Positions 1,688 to 42,828 of a DNA stretch of 50,069 nucleotides are shown here, piece by piece; the first letter of the stretch is position 1; each line of letters starts with the position of its first letter. This DNA is from Planctomycetota bacterium (GTDB lineage: Bacteria > Planctomycetota > MHYJ01 > JACPRB01). The translations under genes and the position numbers were made by a program. The DNA lies in contig DATLZA010000111.1 of the NCBI GenBank assembly GCA_035574235.1, positions 1 through 50,069 of the forward strand, read 5' to 3'. Under the pieces are notes generated by a model. The model saw only the letters and a program-made list of their open reading frames with translations, was not told where the DNA came from and did no database searches.

Positions 1688-3448
1688 ATGATCAGATTGC
1701 TGGTAAAATCGGAGGGCGAGTCGCGCGAGGTGGAGCTGGCCGATTCGGTGGTCACGCTCGGCCGTTCGGCGGAGAACCTCGTCGCGCTGGCCGACAAGAA
1801 GGCTTCCCGCAAGCACGCCAAGATCGAGAAGACCGACTCGGGTTACGTCCTGACGGATCTCGATTCCGGCAACGGCACGCGCGTCAACGGCAAGGACGTC
1901 AAGACGTACGTCCTGGCCAAAGGGGACGAAATCCAGATCGGGCTGACGAGTCTCTTCGTGCTCGAGCTGGACGGCCCGGCGCCGGTGACGGCGGCGGCGC
2001 CCGTCCCTGCGCCGGCTCCCGCCGCGTCCCCGGCCCCTGCGCCGGCCGCTCCCGCCCCGCAAAAGCCCGCCGTTCCGGAGTTCAAGCGCCGGATCACGCG
2101 CCGGGCGTTCTCGTCGCGGTCGGCCGCGCCGGGCCGCGCCGTCGCCGTGGCCGCGATCTTCATCATTCTGGGCGCCGTGGCGTACGCCTTCGTCTTTCAT
2201 CACCACGAGATTCTGCCCAAACCGGCCGTCCATGCGCACCGGCCGGCGGCCGCCCCCAAGGCCGAACCTTCCCGCGCGGAGGCGGAAAAGGCGCTCGAGG
2301 AGCTGCGCGCCCGGGCCGCCGCCGGCCCGGTCACCGACGCCCTGGTCCGCGAAGCGGAGGAGCAGGCGGAGCGCTTCGAGGCCGTGGCGCCCGGGTTCGC
2401 CGCCCTCCGGGACGACCTCAAGCGCCGTCGCTCCGAAGACATCGCGAAGATGACCTTCGCGGACGTGGAGCGTCTGGTCCAGGAGCACCTCCAGAATCAC
2501 CGGTACGGAGAGGCGATCCACGCGCTCAAGGCCCTGTCGGGCACTCCGGAGGAAGGGGCCGCGTCGTCGCTCCTCGAGCGGATCACCGCGCAGGTCCGCG
2601 CCGACCGCGAGGCGGTGGACGAAGCCGGCAAGAAGCTCGTCGAGGCCAAACGGTATTCGGAAGCGGCGGAGCATTACCGGAAAAACGCTCCGCGCTTCCG
2701 GGGGACGGAGCACTACAGCTATCTGGCCGGCAAGCCGGAGCGCCTCATGCTCCTGGCGGAAGCGGATCTGGCCGCCTCCAAGGCGAAGGCGGAGCGTCCC
2801 GCGCCGGCGCCGGCGCCCGCCGCGCCTCCCAAGCCCGCGGAAGAGCCTCTGGCCAAGGCGATGCCCGCTCCGGAGCCCGCCAAGCCGGCGATGAAACCGG
2901 AGCCCATGAAGCCGGAGCCGGCCATGAAACCCGAGGCTCCCAAGCCGGAGCCCATGAAGCCGGAACCGATGAAGCCTCCGGCGCCCAAGCCGGAACCTCC
3001 GAAGCCGGAGCCGGCCAAGCCGGAACCCGCCAAGGCCGAGAAGGCCCGGCCCGCGTTCAAGAAGCCGCCGGTGCTTTGCGACATCAAGCGCACGGTCAAG
3101 GGAATGTTCTGCACGACGTGCGACCGCGTGCTGGACCCCGAGAATGACACGCGCCGCGGAGTCTGCAAGCGCTGCGAAGAAAAGCCCATGAAGATCGACA
3201 TGTGCGTGCGGCGCTACTTCCAGGCGGCCTGCCACCCCGAGAAGGTGAGCGACAAGCCCGTCTTCTGCTGAGGGAAGCTCCACGATACTCCGTTGGAGGA
3301 TCGGGCCCGGATCGTTTACTACTGCGAGTCCTGCGAACAGGTGGGGGACACTCAGGGCGACGTGCCCCATACCCCCGAATGCAAGAATCGATTCGGCGTG
3401 ACGAAGGTGTGCACGAAGTCGGGGCACGAGCCCCATTCGGGAAAATAG
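1688..3448 (+). CDS. FHA-domain membrane protein with periplasmic Cys-rich domain; in-frame UGA read as selenocysteine (candidate)
   Basis: The ATG at 1688 follows a GGAGGAG Shine-Dalgarno. Residues 1-100 form an FHA phosphothreonine-binding domain (GRS at 26-28, SRKHA at 41-45, NGT near 62). A Pro/Ala-rich stretch, one transmembrane helix (about 150-170), a charged helical region possibly TPR-like (about 190-365) and a Pro/Lys/Glu/Met linker (about 370-455) follow. The C-terminal domain holds CTTC, CKRC and a CHP motif. At residue 528 the frame meets UGA directly after a Cys, then runs on 58 codons to TAG at 3446. That extension (EDRARIVYYCESC) matches the gene at 3483 (EDRARIIYECSTC). If UGA were a true stop, 211 nt would separate the two genes; with readthrough the gap is 34 nt. 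FHA would be cytoplasmic and the Cys/Sec domain periplasmic. Sec is inferred; premature termination at 3271 remains possible. Confidence 0.72.
2860..3045 (+). repeat. In-gene repeat coding a Lys-Pro-Glu-Pro-Met linker
   Basis: Tandem degenerate units coding KPEPMKPEPA-like peptides produce a run of near-identical AAGCCGGAGCC words inside the FHA-protein gene. The peptide is extended and charged, suited to spanning periplasm or peptidoglycan between the helical region and the terminal Cys domain. Such tracts often vary in length between strains. Confidence 0.7.
3269..3271 (+). other. In-frame UGA, candidate selenocysteine codon (Cys-Sec pair)
   Basis: UGA follows a UGC codon, giving Cys-UGA-Gly. 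In the all-Cys paralogue at 4981 the same place is Cys-Cys-Gly within KPVRCCG, against KPVFC-UGA-G here. Homology resumes immediately after the codon. UGA aligned to Cys with conserved sequence on both sides is the classical signature of a selenoprotein gene. Confidence 0.72.
3281..3305 (+). promoter_or_regulatory. Candidate bacterial SECIS hairpin
   Basis: CTCC (3288-3291) pairs with GGAG (3295-3298) around the 3-nt loop GTT. The stem extends, after one A-G mismatch, through GAT/ATC (3284-3286 with 3300-3302) and C3283-G3303. The loop begins with G and starts 20 nt after the UGA, within the distance known for bacterial SECIS elements, whose apical loop has an early G contacted by SelB. Folding was done by eye. 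Confidence 0.5.
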
Positions 3449-3482
3449 GGACCTCCCCGGGCGGGGAGCGGAAAGGAGCGGG

Positions 3483-4301
3483 ATGATGAGCATGAGGAAG
3501 GCCGCGGGGGCGGTCTGCGCCCTCGTTCTGGCGGCGGGCGCCGCCTTCGCCCTGGCCCAGGCCAAGCCGGTCAACGCCAAGTGCCCCGTCAAGCCCCAGA
3601 ACGCCGCCAAGCCGGACATCACGGCGGCCTACAAGGGGCACACGATCGGCTTCTGCTGCGGCGGCTGCAAACAGCGGTTCGCCGGGGATCCGGACGCCTA
3701 CGCCGAACAGATCCCCGAGCTCTCCAAGGCCCCGGCCAGGCCGGACAACAAACCCATCAACGCCAAGTGCCCGGTCCGCCCGGACCAGCCGGCCAAGGCC
3801 GCCGTCACGGTCACGATCCAGGGCAAGGTCATCGGGTTCTGCTGCAAGTCCTGCCTGGCCAAGTTCTCCAAGAGTCCGGAAGCGTACCTCGCTTCGATTC
3901 CGGAGCTGCGGGTGCGCAACGGATCGTCCTCGGAAAAGACCGGTCCCTGCGAGGTGAACCGGACGGCCAAGGGATACTACTGCACCACCTGCAAGCGCGA
4001 GCTGGGGCCGGACGACGTGCGCGGCGGGCTCTGCAAGCGGTGCGAGAACAAACCCACCGAGATCGAGTATTGCGTCAAGCTCGTCCCCAAGCCCGTTCCG
4101 CCCAAGAACGGGAAGCCGCAGCCGCCGGAGATCGCCGAAGACCGCGCACGGATCATCTACGAATGCTCGACCTGCGGCGCCCGCGCGGACGTGGAGGCCG
4201 AGGTCAAGCATAAACCGGACTGCAAGCCGGTGCTTGGAGCCTCCTACAAGAAGATCTGCTCGAAGTCCGGCAAGCCGCCTCACGTGGGGGATGAGAAATG
4301 A
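3483..4301 (+). CDS. Secreted double-YHS, Cys-rich putative metal-binding protein
   Basis: A 272-residue protein with a signal peptide ending near AFALAQA. Two tandem YHS-like repeats follow, each starting NAKCPV and carrying a GFCC-x-x-C core (GFCCGGCKQRF and GFCCKSCLAKF). YHS domains occur in heavy-metal transport and sensor proteins. The C-terminal half is homologous to the C-terminus of the FHA protein just upstream: GYYCTTC, LCKRC, then EDRARIIYECSTC and a terminal CSKSGKPP block. It lacks the segment where the relatives carry Cys-Cys or UGA, having a Pro/Lys-rich stretch instead. A GGAAAGGAG Shine-Dalgarno precedes ATG-ATG at 3483; the ATG at 3492 is an alternative. The substrate is unknown; soft metal or metalloid binding is inferred from the Cys content. 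Confidence 0.85.
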   Translation: MMSMRKAAGAVCALVLAAGAAFALAQAKPVNAKCPVKPQNAAKPDITAAYKGHTIGFCCGGCKQRFAGDPDAYAEQIPELSKAPARPDNKPINAKCPVRPDQPAKAAVTVTIQGKVIGFCCKSCLAKFSKSPEAYLASIPELRVRNGSSSEKTGPCEVNRTAKGYYCTTCKRELGPDDVRGGLCKRCENKPTEIEYCVKLVPKPVPPKNGKPQPPEIAEDRARIIYECSTCGARADVEAEVKHKPDCKPVLGASYKKICSKSGKPPHVGDEK

Positions 4302-4453: not shown

Positions 4454-4873
4454 ATGCGAAAAGCGTGGTGGGTGGGGGCGCTCGCCGCGGCGATCGCGCT
4501 CGTGGCGGCGGCGCAGGCGCCCCCGCGGTGTACGGGGACTCCGTCCAAGAAGCCGTACTGCAAGACGTGCGACAAGTTGCTCGATCCCAAGACGGAGATG
4601 AAGGGCCGGAAGTGCGCCAAGGACGACACGGAAACGACGCTGGTCGACGTCTGCGTGAAGAAGACGCCGTACGTCAAGTGCCACCCGAACAAGGAGGGGC
4701 TCAAGGTCGGCGGAACCTGATGAGGGAATCCCGTCACCGAACAGGTGGATGAGGCCCGTGTGGTCTCGAAGTGCACGGGGTGCAACGCGGAGGCGCTCAG
4801 CCCGAAAGACCTCAAGCACGCGGACGACTGCAAGAAGAAGGCGCTGGCCCGGGGGTGCAAGCACGTCCTCTAG
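4454..4873 (+). CDS. Small secreted Cys-rich protein with tandem UGA-UGA, candidate Sec-Sec selenoprotein
   Basis: The ATG at 4454 follows GGGAGGTGG. A signal peptide (about residues 1-22) leads into PPRC, CKTC, a KC near 50, DVC and KCHP, the arrangement of the paralogue at 4981. After 88 residues the frame meets two consecutive UGA codons, then continues 50 codons to TAG at 4871. The extension has CTGC and DLKHADDC, against CEGC and ALKHADGC in the paralogue, so it is coding. UGA-UGA falls where the paralogue has Cys-Cys, both followed by Gly (one residue is inserted just before). A terminator begins 22 nt after the TAG, which marks the TAG as the true end. The full product is 139 residues with Sec at 89-90. 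Without Sec insertion an 88-residue truncated protein is made. Function unknown; metal or metalloid binding or redox in the periplasm is inferred. Confidence 0.72.
4718..4723 (+). other. Tandem UGA-UGA, candidate consecutive selenocysteine codons
   Basis: Two adjacent UGA codons replace the vicinal Cys-Cys of the paralogue at 4981. The eight bases TGAGGGAA starting at the second UGA are identical to those at the UGA of the FHA protein (3269-3276). Consecutive Sec residues are very unusual and would form a vicinal diselenol or diselenide. Confidence 0.68.
4734..4748 (+). promoter_or_regulatory. Candidate SECIS hairpin downstream of UGA-UGA
   Basis: CACC (4735-4738) pairs with GGTG (4744-4747) around the loop GAACA, with a flanking U-G pair and, beyond a small internal loop, one or two further C-G pairs. 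The loop starts with G, 15 nt after the second UGA and 18 nt after the first. It is weaker than the hairpin at 3281 and was judged by eye. Confidence 0.4.
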
Positions 4874-4895
4874 GCCGCTGCCGCAAGGATTCCGG

Positions 4896-4931
4896 AAGGC
4901 GCCCGGTCTCCCCTCGGGGACCGGGCGCCTT
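4896..4931 (+). terminator. Rho-independent-type terminator after the tandem-UGA gene
   Basis: AAGGCGCCCGGTC and GACCGGGCGCCTT form a perfect 13-bp stem with a 10-nt loop, followed by the T-rich TTCCCTTTCC. It begins 22 nt beyond the TAG at 4871 but 172 nt beyond the UGA pair, supporting the TAG as the natural end of the gene. Confidence 0.8.
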
Positions 4932-4954
4932 TCCCTTTCCCGCCCGGCGGGCCG

Positions 4955-4980: not shown

Positions 4981-5388
4981 ATGAAAGCCGTTCTCGCCGC
5001 GGCCGTCCTGGCCGTCGCGGCGGCGGTCCCGGCGCGACCGCCCTGCGAGATGAAGAACAAAGTGAAGCGGTGGCATTGCCCCAAGTGCGAAAAGCTCTAC
5101 CCTCCGAACGCCGTGAAGGCGCGAACCTGCCCCGAGGACAAGGCGTCCCTGGAGCAGGCGGAGGTGTGCGTGCGGGAGCGCTACGTGGCCGCCTGCCATC
5201 CGGACAAGGTGGGGGACAAACCCGTGCGCTGCTGCGGCGTGGAGTACACCAAGCCGACCCTGGACGAATCGGAGATTCTTTACGTCTGCGAAGGATGCGG
5301 GGTCAAGTCGAGGACCCTGGGCGCCCTCAAGCACGCCGACGGCTGCGCGGACCGCAAGGTCAAGAAGCGCTGCGGGCACGCCGCGTGA
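4981..5388 (+). CDS. Small secreted Cys-rich protein, all-Cys paralogue
   Basis: A 135-residue protein with a signal peptide (about 1-20, AAAVPARPPC). It has the same Cys skeleton as its neighbours: HCPKC, TC, EVC, ACHPDK, a vicinal Cys-Cys in KPVRCCGVEY, then YVCEGC and LKHADGC with a terminal RCGHAA. The two CxxC knuckles look like treble-clef or zinc-ribbon halves. It is uninterrupted and serves as the internal reference showing that UGA in the relatives replaces Cys. Translation starts after GGAGGAGG. No known family was recognised; periplasmic metal or metalloid binding is an inference from Cys content and from the neighbouring YHS protein and membrane protein. Confidence 0.85.
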   Translation: MKAVLAAAVLAVAAAVPARPPCEMKNKVKRWHCPKCEKLYPPNAVKARTCPEDKASLEQAEVCVRERYVAACHPDKVGDKPVRCCGVEYTKPTLDESEILYVCEGCGVKSRTLGALKHADGCADRKVKKRCGHAA

Positions 5389-5434: not shown

Positions 5435-6055
5435 ATGGACAAACTGGCCGTCAGCCTGCTGTCCACCTTCACGGTCGCGCTTCTGCACACGCTGATCCCG
5501 AGCCACTGGCTGTGCTTCGTGGTTGTGGGGCGGGCGCAGGGCTGGCGGACGCGAAAGACGCTCGCGGTCGCGGCGGCCGCGGGGACGCTCCACGTGGCCT
5601 CCACGGTGGGGCTCGGGGTGGCGGTCGTGGCTTTCGGGAAGGCGTTTCTCGACCCTGAAAGCCCGGTCCTCGAAAAAGGCGGCGCGGCGATCCTGATCGC
5701 GCTCGGGCTTCTCTACCTGGCCTCGCACGTTCTGCACGCGGGCCACCGCCACGCGCACGACCAGTCCGTGACCGAAAAGACCGCGTTCGCGGCGCTCGTC
5801 CTGTCGCTCGTCTTTTCGCCCTGCTCGGCGGCCATTCCGTTCCTCGTGGCCGCCTCGCACACCCTGGGGACGGGGGCGGTGATGCTCCTCTCGGCCGTCC
5901 TTCTGGCGACGACGCTGGGGGTGATGATGCTTCTCATCGGGCTGACGACCCTCGGGATCGAAAAGCTCCAGTTCTCCTTCTTCGACCGCTACGAGAAGCT
6001 CATTCTGGGGCTGGTCCTGGCCGCGCTCGGGGGGCTTTCGCTGGCGGTTCATTGA
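5435..6055 (+). CDS. Polytopic membrane protein, possible NicO/RcnA-like metal transporter
   Basis: 206 residues with about six predicted membrane helices. The first helix carries HTLIPSHW, reminiscent of the H-x4-D/S-H motifs of nickel/cobalt exporters and LysE-type transporters. A cytoplasmic or periplasmic His-rich loop HAGHRHAH follows helix 3, and the fourth helix has FSPCSAAIPF, a Pro-Cys motif seen also in CcdA/DsbD-like proteins. No domain is conclusive. Its place directly after four Cys-rich metal-binding-like proteins suggests metal or metalloid transport, or electron transfer to them. Its C-terminus overlaps the convergent gene at 6049 by 7 bp. Confidence 0.75.
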   Translation: MDKLAVSLLSTFTVALLHTLIPSHWLCFVVVGRAQGWRTRKTLAVAAAAGTLHVASTVGLGVAVVAFGKAFLDPESPVLEKGGAAILIALGLLYLASHVLHAGHRHAHDQSVTEKTAFAALVLSLVFSPCSAAIPFLVAASHTLGTGAVMLLSAVLLATTLGVMMLLIGLTTLGIEKLQFSFFDRYEKLILGLVLAALGGLSLAVH

Positions 6056-32021: not shown

Positions 32022-33623
32022 TCAGGTTTCCTCCCGCGACGGGTAGAAGTACGGAGGCTCGGTCACCACGGGCGTCTCCGCGAAGTTGTGCGCCGGCGGC
32101 GGCGAGGCGGTCCGCCACTCCAGCCCCGTGGCGTTCCAGGGATTGCGCCCCGCCGCCGGACCGTACCGCAGGGACCACAGGAGATAGAGCATCGGCAGCC
32201 CATAACCCGCCGCGAGAATGGAGGCGCCCGCCGAGGACATGACGTTGAGCACCTGGTACTCTTCCGGATAGGCGTGATACCGCCGCGGCATCCCCGCGTA
32301 CCCCAGGATGAACTGCGGAAAAAACGTCAGGTTGAACCCGATGAAGATCACGATCGCCGCGAACCGCCCCCATCCCTCCGGGTACCGGCGCCCCGTCATC
32401 TTGGGCCACCAGTAGTGCATGCCCCCGAGGTACGCCATCACCATTCCGCCCACCATGATGTAGTGAAAGTGCGCGATCACGAAGTACGTGTCGTGGACGT
32501 GCACGTCCACCGCCAGGGTCGCCAGGAAAAGCCCCGTGAGCCCCCCGATCGTGAAGAGGCCGATGAACCCGAGCGCATAAAGCATCGGCGTCTCGAACGA
32601 AATCGACCCCTTGTAAAGCGTCGCCGTCCAGTTGAAGACCTTCACCGCCGACGGAAGGGCCACGAGAAAACTCAGCAGCGAAAAGACCATCCCCCCGTAC
32701 AGGGACTGGCCGGCCACGAACATGTGATGCCCCCAGACGAGAAACCCCAGCACCGCGATCGCCAGGCTCGCGAACGCCACGAAGGCGTACCCGAAGAACC
32801 GCTTGCGCGAGAAGACCGGCACGATCTCGCTGACCACCCCCATCCCGGGCAGGATCATGATGTAGACCGCCGGATGGGAATAGAACCAGAAGAGATGCTG
32901 GAAAAGCACGGGGTCTCCGCCCAGCGCCGGATCGAAAATCCCCACTCCCGCCAGCCGCTCGATCCCCACGAGCGCCAGCGTCACCGCCAGAACCGGCGTC
33001 GCCAGCACCTGAATGAGGCTCGTGGCGTACAAGGACCACACGAAAAGCGGCAGCCTCATCCACGTCAGCCCCGGCGCCCGCAGCCGGTGCGTCGTCACGA
33101 TGAAGTTGAGCCCCGTCAGGATCGACGAGAACCCCGCCACGAAAATCCCCAGGACCGTCAGAACCACGTGGGTGTTGGAAAAGACCGAGCTGTACGGCGT
33201 GTAGAAGGTCCATCCCGTGTCCACTCCGCCGCTCAGAATCGCCCCGAGCGCCAGGAGCCCTCCCGCGTTGAAGAGATACCAGCTCGCCAGGTTCACCCGC
33301 GGGAACGCCAGATCGCGCGCCCCCAGCATGAGCGGCAGCATGAAGTTCCCGAGCACCGCGGGAATCGAAGGAATCAGGAAGAAAAAGACCATCACGATGC
33401 CGTGCATGGAGAACAGCTTGTTGTACGTCTCCGGCTGAACGAGATCTCCCGCCGGCGTCATCAGCTCCAGCCGCACGAGCGTGGCGAACGCCCCGCCCAC
33501 GAAGAAAAAGAAGGTGATGGAGAGAAGATAGAGAATCCCGATCCGCTTGTGGTCCGTGGTCAAAAGCCACGAACGCACCGAGTAATCCGCGTTCAGATAG
33601 TTCTCCGCCGGACGCGCGTCCAT
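32022..33623 (-). CDS. ctaD: Cytochrome c oxidase subunit I, A2-type (caa3)
   Basis: 533 residues, 12 membrane helices. Haem and CuB ligands: first haem-a His in [12 protein letters not shown], the CuB-His/Tyr helix in [17 protein letters not shown], His pair in GHHMFVAG, and [14 protein letters not shown] for the last haem ligands. The YSHP motif replaces the Glu of A1-type GHPEVY enzymes, marking the A2 proton-channel type found in Thermus caa3. K-channel Lys is in [19 protein letters not shown]. It is the catalytic O2-reducing, proton-pumping subunit. Confidence 0.97.
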
Positions 33624-33632
33624 GCTCGCCCC

Positions 33633-34571
33633 TCAATCGGCGGGCGGGCCTTCCGGAGCCGCGCCCAGGGATCGGATGTATTCGATCAGCGCAAGGATCT
33701 CCTCCTCGCCCACCCTCCCCCGGAACGACGGCATGATCGGCTCGAACCCTTCCACGACCCGGGCGGCCGGATCCAGGATCGATTCGCGCACGTACGCCGC
33801 GTCCGCCGTCGCCGTGCCTCCGCCCCGCAGCGGCACCCGGCTCCCGAAAAGGCCCTCGAGGCGCGGCGCCCGCGCCTCCGGCCCCCCCGTGTGACAGGTC
33901 GCGCATCCGAGGCTCAGGAAAAGCCGCCGCCCCTCCGCGGCGGGCGACCCCTCCGCCCCCCGTTCCAGCCACTCCTCGTAGCGCCGCGGCTCCAGCACCG
34001 CCACCCGCCCCACCATCCCCGAGTGCAGCGTCCCGCAGTACTCCGCGCAGAAGAGACGGTACTCCCCCGGCCGCGTCGCCTCGAACCAGGCCGTCGTGTA
34101 CCGTCCCGGCAGCGCATCCTGCTTGATCCGGAAGGCGGGCACGTAGAAGCTGTGAATCACGTCCTGCGAAGTCAGGTGGAGCCGGACCGGACGCCCCGTC
34201 GGCACGTGAAGCTCGTTGATCTCCCGCGCGCCGCTCGGATGCTGAACCTTCCACATCCATCGGCGGCCGATCACGTAAACCTCCATCGCCCCGGCGGGCG
34301 GCGTCTGGAGATCCACGAACAGGCTCGCCCCCCACGCGAACATGCCGAGCAGGATCACCCCGGGAATCGCGATCCAGATCACCTCGAGCGCGTTGTTCGT
34401 CGCCGTCTGCACGGCGCGCTCGCCGGGCGACCGCCGCCGGTACTTGACCGAGAAGGCCACGAGGCACGCCACGATCACGGCCGCGAAAAGCGCGCACACC
34501 CCGACGAGACAGCCGTAGAGCGCGTCCACCTGTCCCGCCATCGTCGAGGCCCGTTCCGGATAGAACTTCAC
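33633..34571 (-). CDS. ctaC: Cytochrome c oxidase subunit II with fused cytochrome c domain
   Basis: 312 residues from GTG 34571, which overlaps the SCO stop (GTGA); ATG 34541 is the alternative. Two N-terminal membrane helices anchor a cupredoxin with CuA ligands in VIHSFYVPAF (His) and CAEYCGTLHSGM (Cys, Glu, Cys, His, Met). A C-terminal class I cytochrome c domain has CATCH and a distal Met in EPIMPSF. The cytochrome c fusion defines a caa3 oxidase and removes the need for a soluble donor; complex III upstream in the operon is the probable electron source. Confidence 0.95.
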   Translation of the reverse strand: MKFYPERASTMAGQVDALYGCLVGVCALFAAVIVACLVAFSVKYRRRSPGERAVQTATNNALEVIWIAIPGVILLGMFAWGASLFVDLQTPPAGAMEVYVIGRRWMWKVQHPSGAREINELHVPTGRPVRLHLTSQDVIHSFYVPAFRIKQDALPGRYTTAWFEATRPGEYRLFCAEYCGTLHSGMVGRVAVLEPRRYEEWLERGAEGSPAAEGRRLFLSLGCATCHTGGPEARAPRLEGLFGSRVPLRGGGTATADAAYVRESILDPAARVVEGFEPIMPSFRGRVGEEEILALIEYIRSLGAAPEGPPAD

Positions 34572-35311
34572 GGCTCCCCCGTACGCCGGCGGCGCTCCCG
34601 GAACGCCATCAGCCCCACACCGAATCCCAGGGCCAGCGCCGTCAGGACCCCGAGCCCGCGCACCGCCGCCAGGACGCTCAGGCTGTACCGCCCCCGCGAG
34701 GGATCGTATCGGAAACACACCAGCAGCACGCGGTCCCGCAGGTTCCCCAGACGCCCCCCGCCGGCTTCCACGAGCGCCAGCCGCAGGTCCCGGGGCGGAT
34801 AATCGATCCCCGGGAAAAACGAAGACACGCGGCCGTCCGGCGTCAGGATCACCACGCCGGCCGCATGCGCGTACTGGTCCGAACGCGCGTCATAGGCGTA
34901 CCGAAACCCCACCGCCCCGGCGATTCGACGGATCGCCTCCTCCGAACCGGTCAGAAACCGCCACGCCTCCCCCGGCCGCCGCTGGTAACGCGCCTTCTTC
35001 TCCGCCGCCAGCCCCGGCGGTTCCCGCGGATCGATGCTGACGACCACCGCCTCGAACTCCCGCCCCGGGACCAGCCCCAGAACCCCGAACGCCCGGGCCA
35101 GTCCTCCGAGCACCTCCCCGCACACCAGGGGGCATCGGTAATAGACCAGCGCCAGGAGGCCGGGCTTTCCGCCCAGAACCTTCCGCAGCGAAACCTGCGC
35201 CTCCCCCTCGGTCAGCTCCACATCGAGCGGAACGCTCTCCCCGAGGCGGGGATCGAAGCCCACGTCGGACGGCCCGGCCTGAGCCCACGCCAGCGCGAGA
35301 ACGGCGATCAT
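34568..35311 (-). CDS. SCO1/SenC-type copper chaperone
   Basis: 247 residues, thioredoxin fold. The Cu ligands are the Cys pair in YYRCPLVCGE and the His in DQYAHAAGV; VSIDPREPPG and VVILTPDGRVSSFFPG are family blocks. It has a short N-terminal signal-like segment and an extra C-terminal membrane helix (VRGLGVLTALALGFGVGLM, about 215-235). It delivers copper to the CuA site of subunit II, the next gene, overlapping it by GTGA. Confidence 0.92.
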   Translation of the reverse strand: MIAVLALAWAQAGPSDVGFDPRLGESVPLDVELTEGEAQVSLRKVLGGKPGLLALVYYRCPLVCGEVLGGLARAFGVLGLVPGREFEAVVVSIDPREPPGLAAEKKARYQRRPGEAWRFLTGSEEAIRRIAGAVGFRYAYDARSDQYAHAAGVVILTPDGRVSSFFPGIDYPPRDLRLALVEAGGGRLGNLRDRVLLVCFRYDPSRGRYSLSVLAAVRGLGVLTALALGFGVGLMAFRERRRRTGEP

Positions 35312-35670
35312 CGCTCCTCCTTCCGGCGCACGGGCAACCCGCGTTCGGCCAGAAGATCCATCGCCCGCTCGATCGGAATCCGAAACACGCCGGCCCCGGG
35401 ATCCACGATGCCGTAACTCTCAAGGACGGCCCGTTCGGACGCCCGATGCCGGCGGAGATCGCCGGCCGGATCGGCCTGCAGGCGGGGCGGCGGAGGCGCG
35501 GGCCGTTCCCCCCGCGACGGCGGCCGGGGCCCGCGGCGTTCCAGGAGACCGGCGTAAAGCCCCCCGAGAGCGACGTGGATCACGGCCGCGCTCAGGACCA
35601 GAAACGCCGCAAAGAGGACAACCCCGCGGACGGGAAAATCGCGCCGTTCGTGACCCCGGCGCTCATCCAT
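35308..35670 (-). CDS. Hypothetical small membrane protein of the oxidase operon
   Basis: 120 residues. One membrane helix (VVLFAAFLVLSAAVIHVALGGLYAGLL, about 18-44) follows a charged N-terminus, then a Pro/Arg-rich linker and a C-terminal motif ILD-like ESYGIVDPGAGVFRIPIERAMDLLAERGLP. The GVFRIPI-x-x-AMDLL ending is shared, as far as I recall, by small proteins in ACIII or oxidase operons of other bacteria, where it sits before SCO. It overlaps actF by 8 bp and SCO by 4 bp. Probable assembly or accessory subunit; inference. Confidence 0.7.
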   Translation of the reverse strand: MDERRGHERRDFPVRGVVLFAAFLVLSAAVIHVALGGLYAGLLERRGPRPPSRGERPAPPPPRLQADPAGDLRRHRASERAVLESYGIVDPGAGVFRIPIERAMDLLAERGLPVRRKEER

Positions 35671-36853
35671 GGGCGCCCTCCTCGGAAGCGAAAAGCCGTT
35701 CGGTTCCCGGCGCGTGAACGGGCAGGAGCGGCGCCCGGCGAAGCAGCGCCGTCGCCGCCGCCAGCCAGAATCCGCCGATCCCGACGAGAGCCGCCGGAAG
35801 CGTCCATGCCAGGTGCGGGCCGGCCGCTCCGGCGCTCGGAATCACCTGCCAGAAAAGGTCGCCGAGGCGCGCCCCCAGAAGCCCCCCGGCCAGAATCATC
35901 ATCGCCCGGCGGCTCCGCTTCACCCGCTTCGAGAGGAGCAGGAAAAAGGGCGCCGCAAAGTGCACCGTCGCCAGGACCGCCGCGAACGCCCGCCAGCCCG
36001 GGGCGGAGCGGTGGAGGTACCAGTCGATTTCCTCCGGCAGGTTGCCCGACCAGATGATGAGGTATTGCGCGAACGACGTGTACGCCCAGAGCAGGACGAA
36101 CGTCAGGACCAGATTCCCCAGGTCGTTCAGGCGCCCCGGCGTCAGCGCCCCGGCCATCGGTTCGCGGCGGGCCAGGAGCGCCGCCGCCAGGACGCCCGCG
36201 CAGAGGCCCGACAGTCCCTGCCCCGCCATGAAGATCATTCCGAAAATCGTCGAGAACCAGTGCGCCTCGAGGGACATGACCCAATCGACCGCCATGAACG
36301 TGACCGCCAACCCATAGGCGATCAGGCCGGGCCCGCTCAGGAACCGCAGGCGGCGCGCCGCCGCGGGATCGGGCGTCCGGTCCAGGGCCAGGGATCCCCG
36401 GCGGAGGGCGATCGCCAGGACGGCCCAGACCCCGAAGTACGTCCCCGCGCGGGCGACGAAGAAAGGCGCGTTGAGATACGGGGTCCGATGGCGGACCAGT
36501 TCGTCCCCGCCGACCACCTCCGGCCGGCTCCAGGGATAGAGCGTCTCCAGGCCCCCGAGGAGCGGAAGGAAAAAAAGCGCCAGGATCGGCAGCGCCCCCG
36601 CGGCCGCTTCCTGGGGGCGCCGCACGAGCAGACCCCACGTCCCGCCCACAAGAAGGTGCAGCATCAGGACCGCCAGCGACCCCGCCGAGATCCCCGTCCA
36701 GAAAAGAAGCGCCACGAGGTACGCCGGAAAGAACGCCTCCGGAACCGTCACGGCCGCGGCCCCGCAAGCCGCCGCGCCGGCCAGGCCGGCCGCCGCCGCC
36801 CCGCGGATCAGGCGGTCCATCGCGTTTCCGGGATCCCGGCGCGTCTCGGTCAC
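35663..36853 (-). CDS. actF: Alternative complex III subunit ActF
   Basis: 396 residues from GTG 36853, which overlaps the actE stop (GTGA); ATG 36817 is the alternative. About ten membrane helices. Conserved stretches of the ActC/ActF NrfD-like family appear: AYLVALLFWTGISAGSLAVLMLHLLVGG, GLAVTFMAVDWVMSLEAHWFSTIFGM, LVLTFVLLWAYTSFAQYLIIWSGNLPEE. It is one of two quinol-interacting membrane subunits of ACIII, here the smaller, divergent one. Confidence 0.92.
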   Translation of the reverse strand: MTETRRDPGNAMDRLIRGAAAAGLAGAAACGAAAVTVPEAFFPAYLVALLFWTGISAGSLAVLMLHLLVGGTWGLLVRRPQEAAAGALPILALFFLPLLGGLETLYPWSRPEVVGGDELVRHRTPYLNAPFFVARAGTYFGVWAVLAIALRRGSLALDRTPDPAAARRLRFLSGPGLIAYGLAVTFMAVDWVMSLEAHWFSTIFGMIFMAGQGLSGLCAGVLAAALLARREPMAGALTPGRLNDLGNLVLTFVLLWAYTSFAQYLIIWSGNLPEEIDWYLHRSAPGWRAFAAVLATVHFAAPFFLLLSKRVKRSRRAMMILAGGLLGARLGDLFWQVIPSAGAAGPHLAWTLPAALVGIGGFWLAAATALLRRAPLLPVHAPGTERLFASEEGAHG

Positions 36854-37413
36854 GGCGCCTCGAGCCTCCTTAGAACATCCGGCGGCACGTCCTCCCGCCG
36901 GGCGCCCTGGCTGAGCTGGAGCGCCCGCACATACGCCACGATTTCCCACCGCCGCCGCGGCGCGATCAGGTCGTCGTACGCGGGCATCGCCCCCACGCCG
37001 CGCGTGATCACCTCGAAGAAATGTCCGGGCGGCGCCCGCCGGAGGCGGTCGGTATGAAAGGAAGGAGGCGCCCGGAAGCCCCGCTGGACGATCATCCCCG
37101 CCCCCGTTCCCACCGCGTCGTGACACGGCGCGCAGAAGACGCCGTACCGCGCGCGGCCGCGCTCAAGCGCCGCGCGGTCCACCGGAAACGGGAAGACCGG
37201 CGAAAGCTCCCCGCCGAGCCGCCCGGTCTCCAGGAGGGCGTCTCCCGAACGCTCGCCCCGGGCCACCGTCCCGGCCGGCCGCGGTCGAGCCGACTGACCG
37301 TATTCGAAGAAGGCGTTCCGCCCGAGCGGCTTGAGCCGGCCCTCGTCCGTCATCGCCTGCTCGCAGGCGACCAGAAAGGCGAAGGCGACGACGCCAAGGC
37401 GGCGCGCGACCAT
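36850..37413 (-). CDS. actE: Alternative complex III monohaem cytochrome c subunit ActE
   Basis: 187 residues with a lipobox in AFLVACEQ (Cys about 17), so a lipid-anchored periplasmic subunit. One haem-binding CAPCH with a distal Met in VGAMPAYDDLI, and GRARYGVFCAPCHDAVGTGAGM is the hallmark of ActE. It carries electrons from the ActA/ActB module toward the oxidase. It follows the actD stop directly (TAAATG). Confidence 0.95.
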   Translation of the reverse strand: MVARRLGVVAFAFLVACEQAMTDEGRLKPLGRNAFFEYGQSARPRPAGTVARGERSGDALLETGRLGGELSPVFPFPVDRAALERGRARYGVFCAPCHDAVGTGAGMIVQRGFRAPPSFHTDRLRRAPPGHFFEVITRGVGAMPAYDDLIAPRRRWEIVAYVRALQLSQGARREDVPPDVLRRLEAP

Positions 37414-37953
37414 TTATCGCTCCACGTCGTAGATCCCGACCGGGCGCAGCTCCGCCAGGAGCGTCCGGGTCCGGTCGGGATCGAAGCGGGGATCGTCCGC
37501 TTCCACGGACAGAAAGAACCGGTCCTGGCTGGCCAGCGCAAAGCGGGGGACGTTGAAGACGGGGTGATACGGCTGGGGCAGGCCGTTGAGGGCCAGCATG
37601 CCCAGGAGGGCGGACAGGCCCCCGAAGAGAATCGCAAGCTCAAAAGCGATGACGACGAAGGCCGGCCAGCTCGCCGTCGGACGCCCGCCGATGTTGAGCG
37701 GGTCATCGACGGCGGAGGCGAACACCTGCATGAAGAAGCCCCCCGCGGCGCCCGTGAGCCCCCCGGCCAGAACGACCCACGGAAGCCGCGTCCGATCCAT
37801 GCCCAGCGCTTCCGCGAGCCCCTCCACGGGGAACGGCGCGTACGCCTCCACCTTCCGGTAGCCCTCCGCGTGGACCTTCCGCGCCGCCGCGAGAAGGTCC
37901 TCCTTCCGCTCGAACTCGGCGAGCACGCCGAAGAGCCCTCCCCGCCCCGTCAT
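37414..37953 (-). CDS. actD: Alternative complex III subunit ActD (DUF3341)
   Basis: 179 residues, start overlapping the actC stop (ATGA). The DUF3341 signature is clear: [41 protein letters not shown], then two membrane helices ([42 protein letters not shown]) and [22 protein letters not shown]. It is an accessory membrane subunit whose exact role in ACIII is structural. Confidence 0.95.
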
Positions 37954-39298
37954 CCGCGCGCCTCCCCGGGCGCGGGCGGCACGAGCGCCCGCAGCTCGAA
38001 CATGGAAATGGACGGCAGCAGCCGCACGAAGAGGTGAAAGAGCGTCAGGAAGAGGCCGATCGTTCCCGCGAACGTGGCCCAGTCCCACACGGTGGGGTAA
38101 TACATGTGCCACGCCGAGGGGAGGTAATCGCGGTGGAGGCTCTGGACCACGATGACATAGCGCTCCAGCCACATTCCCACGTTGATGACGAGGGCCGCAC
38201 CGAAGAGAGGCAGCGGCCGGCGCCGCACGGCCCGAAACCAGAGCGCCTGAGTCGCCAGCACGTTGCACGCGAGCGTCCCCCAGTACGCGGGGGCGTACGC
38301 GCCCCCGAGCCGGTCGGCCATCATGGCCGCCTCGTACCGGCTCCCGCCGTACCAGCTGAAGAAGGTTTCCATGAGATAGCCGTAGGCCACGACGAGTCCC
38401 GTCGCCAGCATCACCTTGCCCATGTTGTCGAGGTGACATTCCGTGATGAAATCCTCCAGCCCGTACGCCTTCCGCAGCGGCACGGCGAGCGTCACGACCA
38501 TCGCGAAGCCCGAGAAGATCGCGCCGGCCACGAAATAGGGCGGGAAGACCGTGCTGTGCCAGCCCGGGAGGATCGAAATCGCGAAATCGAAGCTCACGAC
38601 CGTATGGACCGAGACCACCAGAGGCGTCGCCAGCCCGGCCAGGAGGACGTACGCCGTTTCGTACCGCAGCCAGTGCCGGGCCGCGCCGCGCCAGCCCATG
38701 GCCAGGAAGCCGTAGACCGCGCGCGCGAACCGCCCCCGCGCCCGGTCGCGCATCGTCGCCAGGTCCGGGATCAGGCCCATGTACCAGAAAAGGAGCGACG
38801 TCAGCCCGTAGGTGAAAACCGCGAAGACGTCCCAGACGAGGGGACTCCGAAACTGCGGCCACAGGCCCATCGTGTTGGGATACGGGAACAGCCAGTACCA
38901 GAACTTCGGCCGCCCCAGATGCAGCAGGGGATACACCGCCGCGCAGGCGACCGCGAAGAGCGTCATGGCCTCCGCAAACCGGTTGATCGACGTCCTCCAG
39001 GACTGGCGCATCAGAAGCAGAATCGCCGAGATCAGCGTTCCCGCGTGGCCGATTCCGATCCACCAGACGAAATTGACGATCGCGAAGCCCCAGGAGACCG
39101 GGACGTTCACGCCCCAGATGCCGATCCCCGCCGAAAAGAGCAGGCCCACCGCGTAGAAGAACAGCAGCACAAGCGCCAGCCCCGCCGCCGCCCCCGCCGT
39201 CCAGCTCCGCGGCATCCGGCCCGAAAGGACGACGGCGCTGATCTTCTCCGTGACGGACGCGTACGTGTGGCCGGGCCGGACGACGGGCGGTCGCGGGG

Positions 39299-39302
<4 letters not shown>
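37950..39302 (-). CDS. actC: Alternative complex III subunit ActC (NrfD/PsrC-like)
   Basis: 450 residues from GTG 39302 overlapping the actB stop (GTGA). Ten membrane helices. Characteristic blocks: [72 protein letters not shown] and [20 protein letters not shown]. It is the main quinol-oxidising membrane subunit. Confidence 0.95.
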
Positions 39303-42177
<2,875 letters not shown>

Positions 42178-42181
<4 letters not shown>

Positions 42182-42828
42182 CGGTGACAGACCGAGCAAT
42201 CCCGGGGCTTGCGGATTCCGTACTCACGAACCAGCGCCCGGCCGCGGGCCTCCTGATCCTCGGGCGGCTCCCAGTCCATGTCGAACACGGCTTCCCGCGG
42301 GCGCACGTACCGTTCGGGACGTTCGTGGCAGTCGAGGCACCATTTCATGAACAGAGACTCGGTCTTCCAGATCAGCGGCATCTCGTCCACCCGTCCGTGG
42401 CAGGTCGAACAGCCGATTCCCTGGCGGACGTGAATCGAGTGGTCGAAGTAGGCGAAGTCCGGAAGATCGTGCACGCGGTTCCAGGCGATGGGCCGCCCCG
42501 TCGCGAAGCTCTCCCGCACGGGAGCCAGGAAGGGGCTTTCGGCCCAGACCTGCGCGTGGCAGTTCATGCACGTGCGGGTCGAAGGCATGCCGGCGAAAGG
42601 GCCTTCCTCGACGCCCGGGTGGCAATACCGGCAGTCGATCCCCAGGCCGCCCACGTGGTGAGCATGGCTGAACTGGACGGGTTGCTCGCGCGCGACGTAG
42701 ACGCCCGTGGAATACGGCGCGTTGTACAGAAACGCGCCCGCCCCGAACGCCGCGGCCACCATCAGGAGCGCTCCGAACACGCTCGCCTTGGCGACCGGGT
42801 TCAGGGCGGGGTGAAAAACCTGGGCCAT
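42178..42828 (-). CDS. actA: Alternative complex III pentahaem cytochrome c subunit ActA
   Basis: 216 residues with an N-terminal membrane anchor (about 14-34). Five CxxCH sites are visible: CRYCH, CMNCH, CSTCH, CLDCH and CSVCH at the very C-terminus. FSHAHHVGGLGIDCRYCHPGVE and FDHSIHVRQGIGCSTCHG give distal His ligands, as expected for ActA. First gene of the 12-gene operon, with a GGAGGGAACC Shine-Dalgarno. The 154-nt gap 42829-42982 holds no gene; CATAAC (minus, 42898-42893) is the only promoter-like hexamer. Confidence 0.96.

Follow-up and report, generated by a model that had tools for sequence, protein, structure and literature searches.

The operon and the gene with two adjacent UGAs

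The window, meaning the whole stretch of 50,069 nucleotides analysed here, comes from a Planctomycetota MAG (G000) of 99% completeness and carries on its forward strand an operon in which several products share a Cys-rich module. In the gene at 4454-4873, the frame opens at ATG 4454, which is preceded by GGAGGT, runs through 88 codons to a tandem TGA-TGA at 4718-4723, and continues for 49 sense codons to a TAG at 4871-4873. Read through, it comprises 139 codons and would encode a secreted, Cys-rich protein with a signal-peptide-like N-terminus followed by a double-ribbon-like domain, in which residues 89-90 are read as Sec-Sec (U89-U90) in the context T-U-U-G. At 4894-4933, 21 nt past the TAG, comes a strong terminator-like hairpin (z = -4.6), in keeping with the terminator that a first-pass annotation of this DNA had placed there.

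The sister genes carry related modules, and the operon is retained in the same gene order in a second Planctomycetota MAG (G001, nzgw515) of the same family and a different genus. Lying upstream in the operon, the gene at 1688-3451 encodes a protein that combines an FHA domain with the Cys-rich module at its C-terminus, and the gene is interrupted by one TGA (3269-3271) that is read as Sec beside a Cys (KPVFC-U-G); the same CU with its TGA is kept in G001, and this gene, overlooked by the first-pass annotation, would be a second selenoprotein gene. In a GC3-based scan of the window for further readthrough genes, the FHA site alone was convincing, and the other candidates were judged to be wrong-frame or chance. 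The gene at 3483-4301, which has no UGA, codes for a secreted protein in which two YHS/TRASH-like repeats (GFCCGGC and GFCCKSC) are combined with the C-terminal Cys-rich module, and its orthologue in G001 (L040:3421-4107) contains two UGA sites, GFCUGGC and SMCUGRM. Another YHS/Cys-rich gene in G001 (L036) carries GFC-U-NGC. Downstream of the double UGA follow an uninterrupted Cys-Cys paralogue (4981-5388) and a conserved membrane protein of 206 residues (5435-6055) with an HxxxPxH motif, a His-rich loop and an SPC motif. Elsewhere in the window, minus-strand genes at 32022-42199 resemble, by eye, those for cytochrome c oxidase subunits and alternative complex III, which suggests aerobic respiration.

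In a MAFFT alignment, the TGA-TGA falls on the Cys-Cys of the paralogue, and it also aligns with the Cys-UGA of the FHA gene. The coordinates and motifs given by the first-pass annotation are right. The domain is uninterrupted in the Cys-Cys paralogue and in every Cys homologue, and the segment past the UGAs is its second half.

Conservation of the double UGA and its extension

The orthologue in G001 (L040:4149-4568) likewise has 139 codons, carries TGA-TGA at the homologous place and encodes a protein 53% identical to that of the window, with 51% identity upstream of the UGAs and 55% downstream. Because an open frame of 49 codons is common in GC-rich DNA, the openness of the extension was given no weight and its conservation was tested instead. 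In frame 0 the two extensions score 129, against a mean of 26 and a maximum of 59 for shuffles, and the other frame pairs and antisense comparisons reach at most 87; downstream of the UGAs, dN is 0.39 versus a dS of 0.91. The segment past the double TGA is under purifying selection. In G001, too, a strong hairpin, followed by TTTTT, lies downstream of the TAG, and the placement of these hairpins in both genomes indicates that the transcript is built to take in the extension.

Across 20 aligned family members, the vicinal pair is found as UU, CU or CC, or else in spaced or incomplete form. The first-pass annotation had proposed a search for homologues with such variants at the site, and UU was found in G001, CU in the FHA gene, and CC in the syntenic gene of a further genome (G002) that precedes the same membrane gene. 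Apart from the UGA-bearing genes of G000 and G001, the homologues are Cys-only. Among the 392 phylum genomes searched, UU occurs solely in these two, with no third case; a related-locus search of the genome contigs matched only the G001 contig, and tblastn of the protein against plasmids gave no match. Homologues that end at the UGA with nothing conserved beyond it, which the first-pass annotation had named as evidence against its reading, are not what was found, as the sole close orthologue has both the TGA-TGA and the conserved extension. Sequence comparison ordinarily recognises selenocysteine by Cys/Sec exchange at one aligned position, and just such an exchange, among CC, CU and UU, is seen at this pair within one operon and across two genera.

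Selenocysteine machinery and probable decoding of the UGAs

The window's genome encodes SelA (484 aa), SelB (642 aa), a tRNA-Sec with anticodon TCA (UCA) and two copies of selD, so the full set of selA, selB, selC and selD is present and the lack of selB and tRNA-Sec, the other counter-evidence named earlier, does not apply. One selD (L013:1480-2409, G000:C165) has an in-frame TGA at the usual Sec/catalytic site (SGG-U-AGK). The second selD, without a UGA, is on contig C10 together with redoxin genes and, at a contig end, a second, diverged SelB C-terminal half (L002); this half may belong to another Sec locus or stem from contamination, which is estimated at 4.66%. G001 encodes SelB plus a SelA fragment at a contig end. 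In the window's genome RF2 is present and other genes of the window end at TGA; therefore, UGA is not globally reassigned and otherwise serves as a stop. The anticodon of tRNA-Trp is CCA, and among the tRNA loci examined, a partial census, tRNA-Sec alone reads UGA.

According to published rules, a bacterial SECIS has a loop of 3-9 nt with a G within the first two loop positions and a spacing of 16-37 nt (PMC13188914). The segment where it would lie (4724-4785) has z = -0.6 over 63 nt, and its candidate loop, CGUGU, located 33 nt past the second UGA and 36 nt past the first, is background-like. In the SECIS prediction suggested by the first-pass annotation, this hairpin, like those near most of the UGA sites, fits the rules, yet so do 39-86% of the ordinary coding positions of the window, the range varying with the strictness of the loop definition, and scoring of all eight UGA sites, including that of selD as positive control, placed none above background. 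Given this pass rate, the SECIS prediction counts neither for nor against the Sec-Sec reading.

Three other readings of the double TGA were weighed. Were it an ordinary stop, the downstream segment could be a separate small protein starting at GTG 4745 or elsewhere, and an in-frame GTG does follow the UGAs in both genomes; this is very improbable, as the segment completes a domain whose two halves are joined without a break in the Cys-Cys paralogue and the Cys homologues, has neither a close ribosome-binding site nor a signal peptide, and stands in an operon where single UGAs occupy the same pair in the FHA and YHS genes of a lineage with the Sec machinery. Slighter still is the chance of a pseudogene or an assembly error, which the fragmented state of both MAGs and the low coverage of the G001 contig (2.36) might invite, since this hexanucleotide is shared by two independently assembled genomes whose proteins are about 53% identical, and purifying selection acts downstream of it. 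Readthrough by itself does not fix the identity of the residue, and UGA might be decoded as Trp, Gly or Cys through a code change or another tRNA; the TGA-terminated genes of the window, RF2, the CCA anticodon of tRNA-Trp and the tRNA-Sec-only reading of UGA in the partial census all stand against it, as does the alignment of the UGAs with Cys, and we regard it as very unlikely. Every comparative test run, namely the TGA-TGA in G001, the conserved extension and the Cys/Sec exchange, supports the consecutive selenocysteines proposed by the first-pass annotation, and it is highly probable from these sequence comparisons that 4454-4873 encodes a protein with U89-U90.

On this comparative basis, we propose that both UGAs would be read with Sec-tRNA brought by SelB and that termination would occur at the TAG at 4871. 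In bacteria, an RNA hairpin shortly past the UGA holds SelB in place. Tandem UGAs would therefore need two deliveries of Sec-tRNA in successive elongation cycles, and for the second of them the hairpin would have moved by one codon.

Relation to known selenoproteins and possible function

The protein matches no Pfam model and no NCBIfam model, including those of MbdU, SaoC, KCU-star and NF041384, and thus appears to be a selenoprotein family outside the models searched. Its structure model is nearly all beta with a mean pLDDT of 87, and a PDB fold search with it gave no E below 0.26 and no thioredoxin match. Two consecutive Sec residues are shared with the algal PDI_e, whose GUGUU motif was reported as the first Sec-Sec case (PMC7539508). 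However, PDI_e comes from eukaryotes and relies on their type of SECIS element and decoding, whereas the present protein is bacterial, secreted and ribbon-like; PDI proteins mostly have a thioredoxin-like fold, which neither Pfam nor PDB matches indicate here, and the GUGUU motif is absent, T-U-U-G having no third Sec. Among bacteria, the CU-motif selenoproteins SaoC, SaoL, HgcA, CopZ-like, MbdU and KCU-star (PMC13188914, Table 1) likewise place Sec in a vicinal pair, and several of them are linked to metals or organometals, but they have Sec beside Cys, one per pair, rather than UU. The YHS domain-containing selenoprotein NF041384 of the same table has Sec in a YHS-type metal-binding protein, like the GFCUGGC protein of G001, although the latter does not match that model and a YHS domain is absent from the Sec-Sec protein. 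Zn_ribbon_6 (PF07191) and the double zinc ribbons of RPA12 resemble the family in having two Cys-rich ribbon-like units, but the Sec-Sec protein is secreted, has an extra vicinal pair and lacks a significant structural match to them.

CU motifs but no UU appear in a 2026 inventory that covers 119 families or subfamilies of prokaryotic selenoproteins (PMC13188914), and full-text searches of the open-licence literature found no report of a bacterial Sec-Sec protein. The great rarity that the first-pass annotation ascribed to consecutive Sec needs qualifying by the algal precedent; in bacteria, Sec-Sec is apparently unreported so far.

As to function, sequence evidence makes soft-metal handling or a selenol redox relay likely. 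The membrane gene at 5435-6055 follows the Sec-Sec or the CC gene in G000, G001 and G002 and is conserved through its family, within which two cysteines in membrane segments, C27 and C130, are retained. Its product has no direct match to PF13386 or PF02683, and its structure model (pLDDT 52) is too poor for use; its homologues match DsbD_2 and DsbD_TM, one (L109) above the PF13386 cut-off and two (L115 and L116) more weakly, so that it may be described as distantly DsbD/CcdA-like. Two homologues, on Spirosoma and Runella plasmids, adjoin genes for heavy-metal P-type ATPases, and one of these also lies beside a CusA/CzcA RND pump gene. Zinc ribbons also come up in the profile comparisons: the FHA sister module has a weak Zn_ribbon_6 match, and the profile of the family hits the double zinc ribbon of RPA12 at E = 0.001.

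A pure extracytoplasmic thiol/selenol relay that reduces peroxide, disulfide or metalloid, driven by the DsbD/CcdA-like protein and carrying no metal cargo, would accord with the DsbD_2 and DsbD_TM matches, with the retention of C27 and C130, and with the view that most known selenoproteins are redox proteins (PMC13188914). The zinc-ribbon-like Cys spacing, the YHS/TRASH repeats and the metal-efflux neighbours of the membrane-protein homologues speak against it, and no thioredoxin fold is recognised by Pfam or the PDB fold search; this relay is possible, and we hold it only tentatively. The ribbon-like module, the YHS domains and the metal-efflux neighbours favour soft-metal handling, with redox cycling still possible, and from the neighbours and the weak family matches we give soft-metal handling rather than a pure redox relay about an even chance.

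Based on these findings, we propose that UU takes the place of a vicinal Cys-Cys in a zinc-ribbon-like domain whose sister modules have CC or CU. The extracytoplasmic UU pair could bind a soft metal such as Cu+ or Hg2+ or cycle between diselenide and diselenol, the first-pass annotation having likewise suggested a diselenide or a soft-metal site. Its partners would be the sister proteins with YHS repeats or an FHA anchor and the product of the neighbouring DsbD/CcdA-like membrane gene, and the latter could provide electrons or move metal. A secreted Sec-Sec protein with a metal or redox function is, taken as a whole, very probable. That it is the first bacterial Sec-Sec protein, with its UGAs decoded by SelB and an in-gene SECIS and with CC, CU and UU as graded soft-metal/redox centres, we consider probable. 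The gene would thus offer a natural, conserved substrate for testing how the ribosome reads two stops in succession, and the CC/CU/UU series in one operon would make the chemical value of one or two seleniums at one site measurable.
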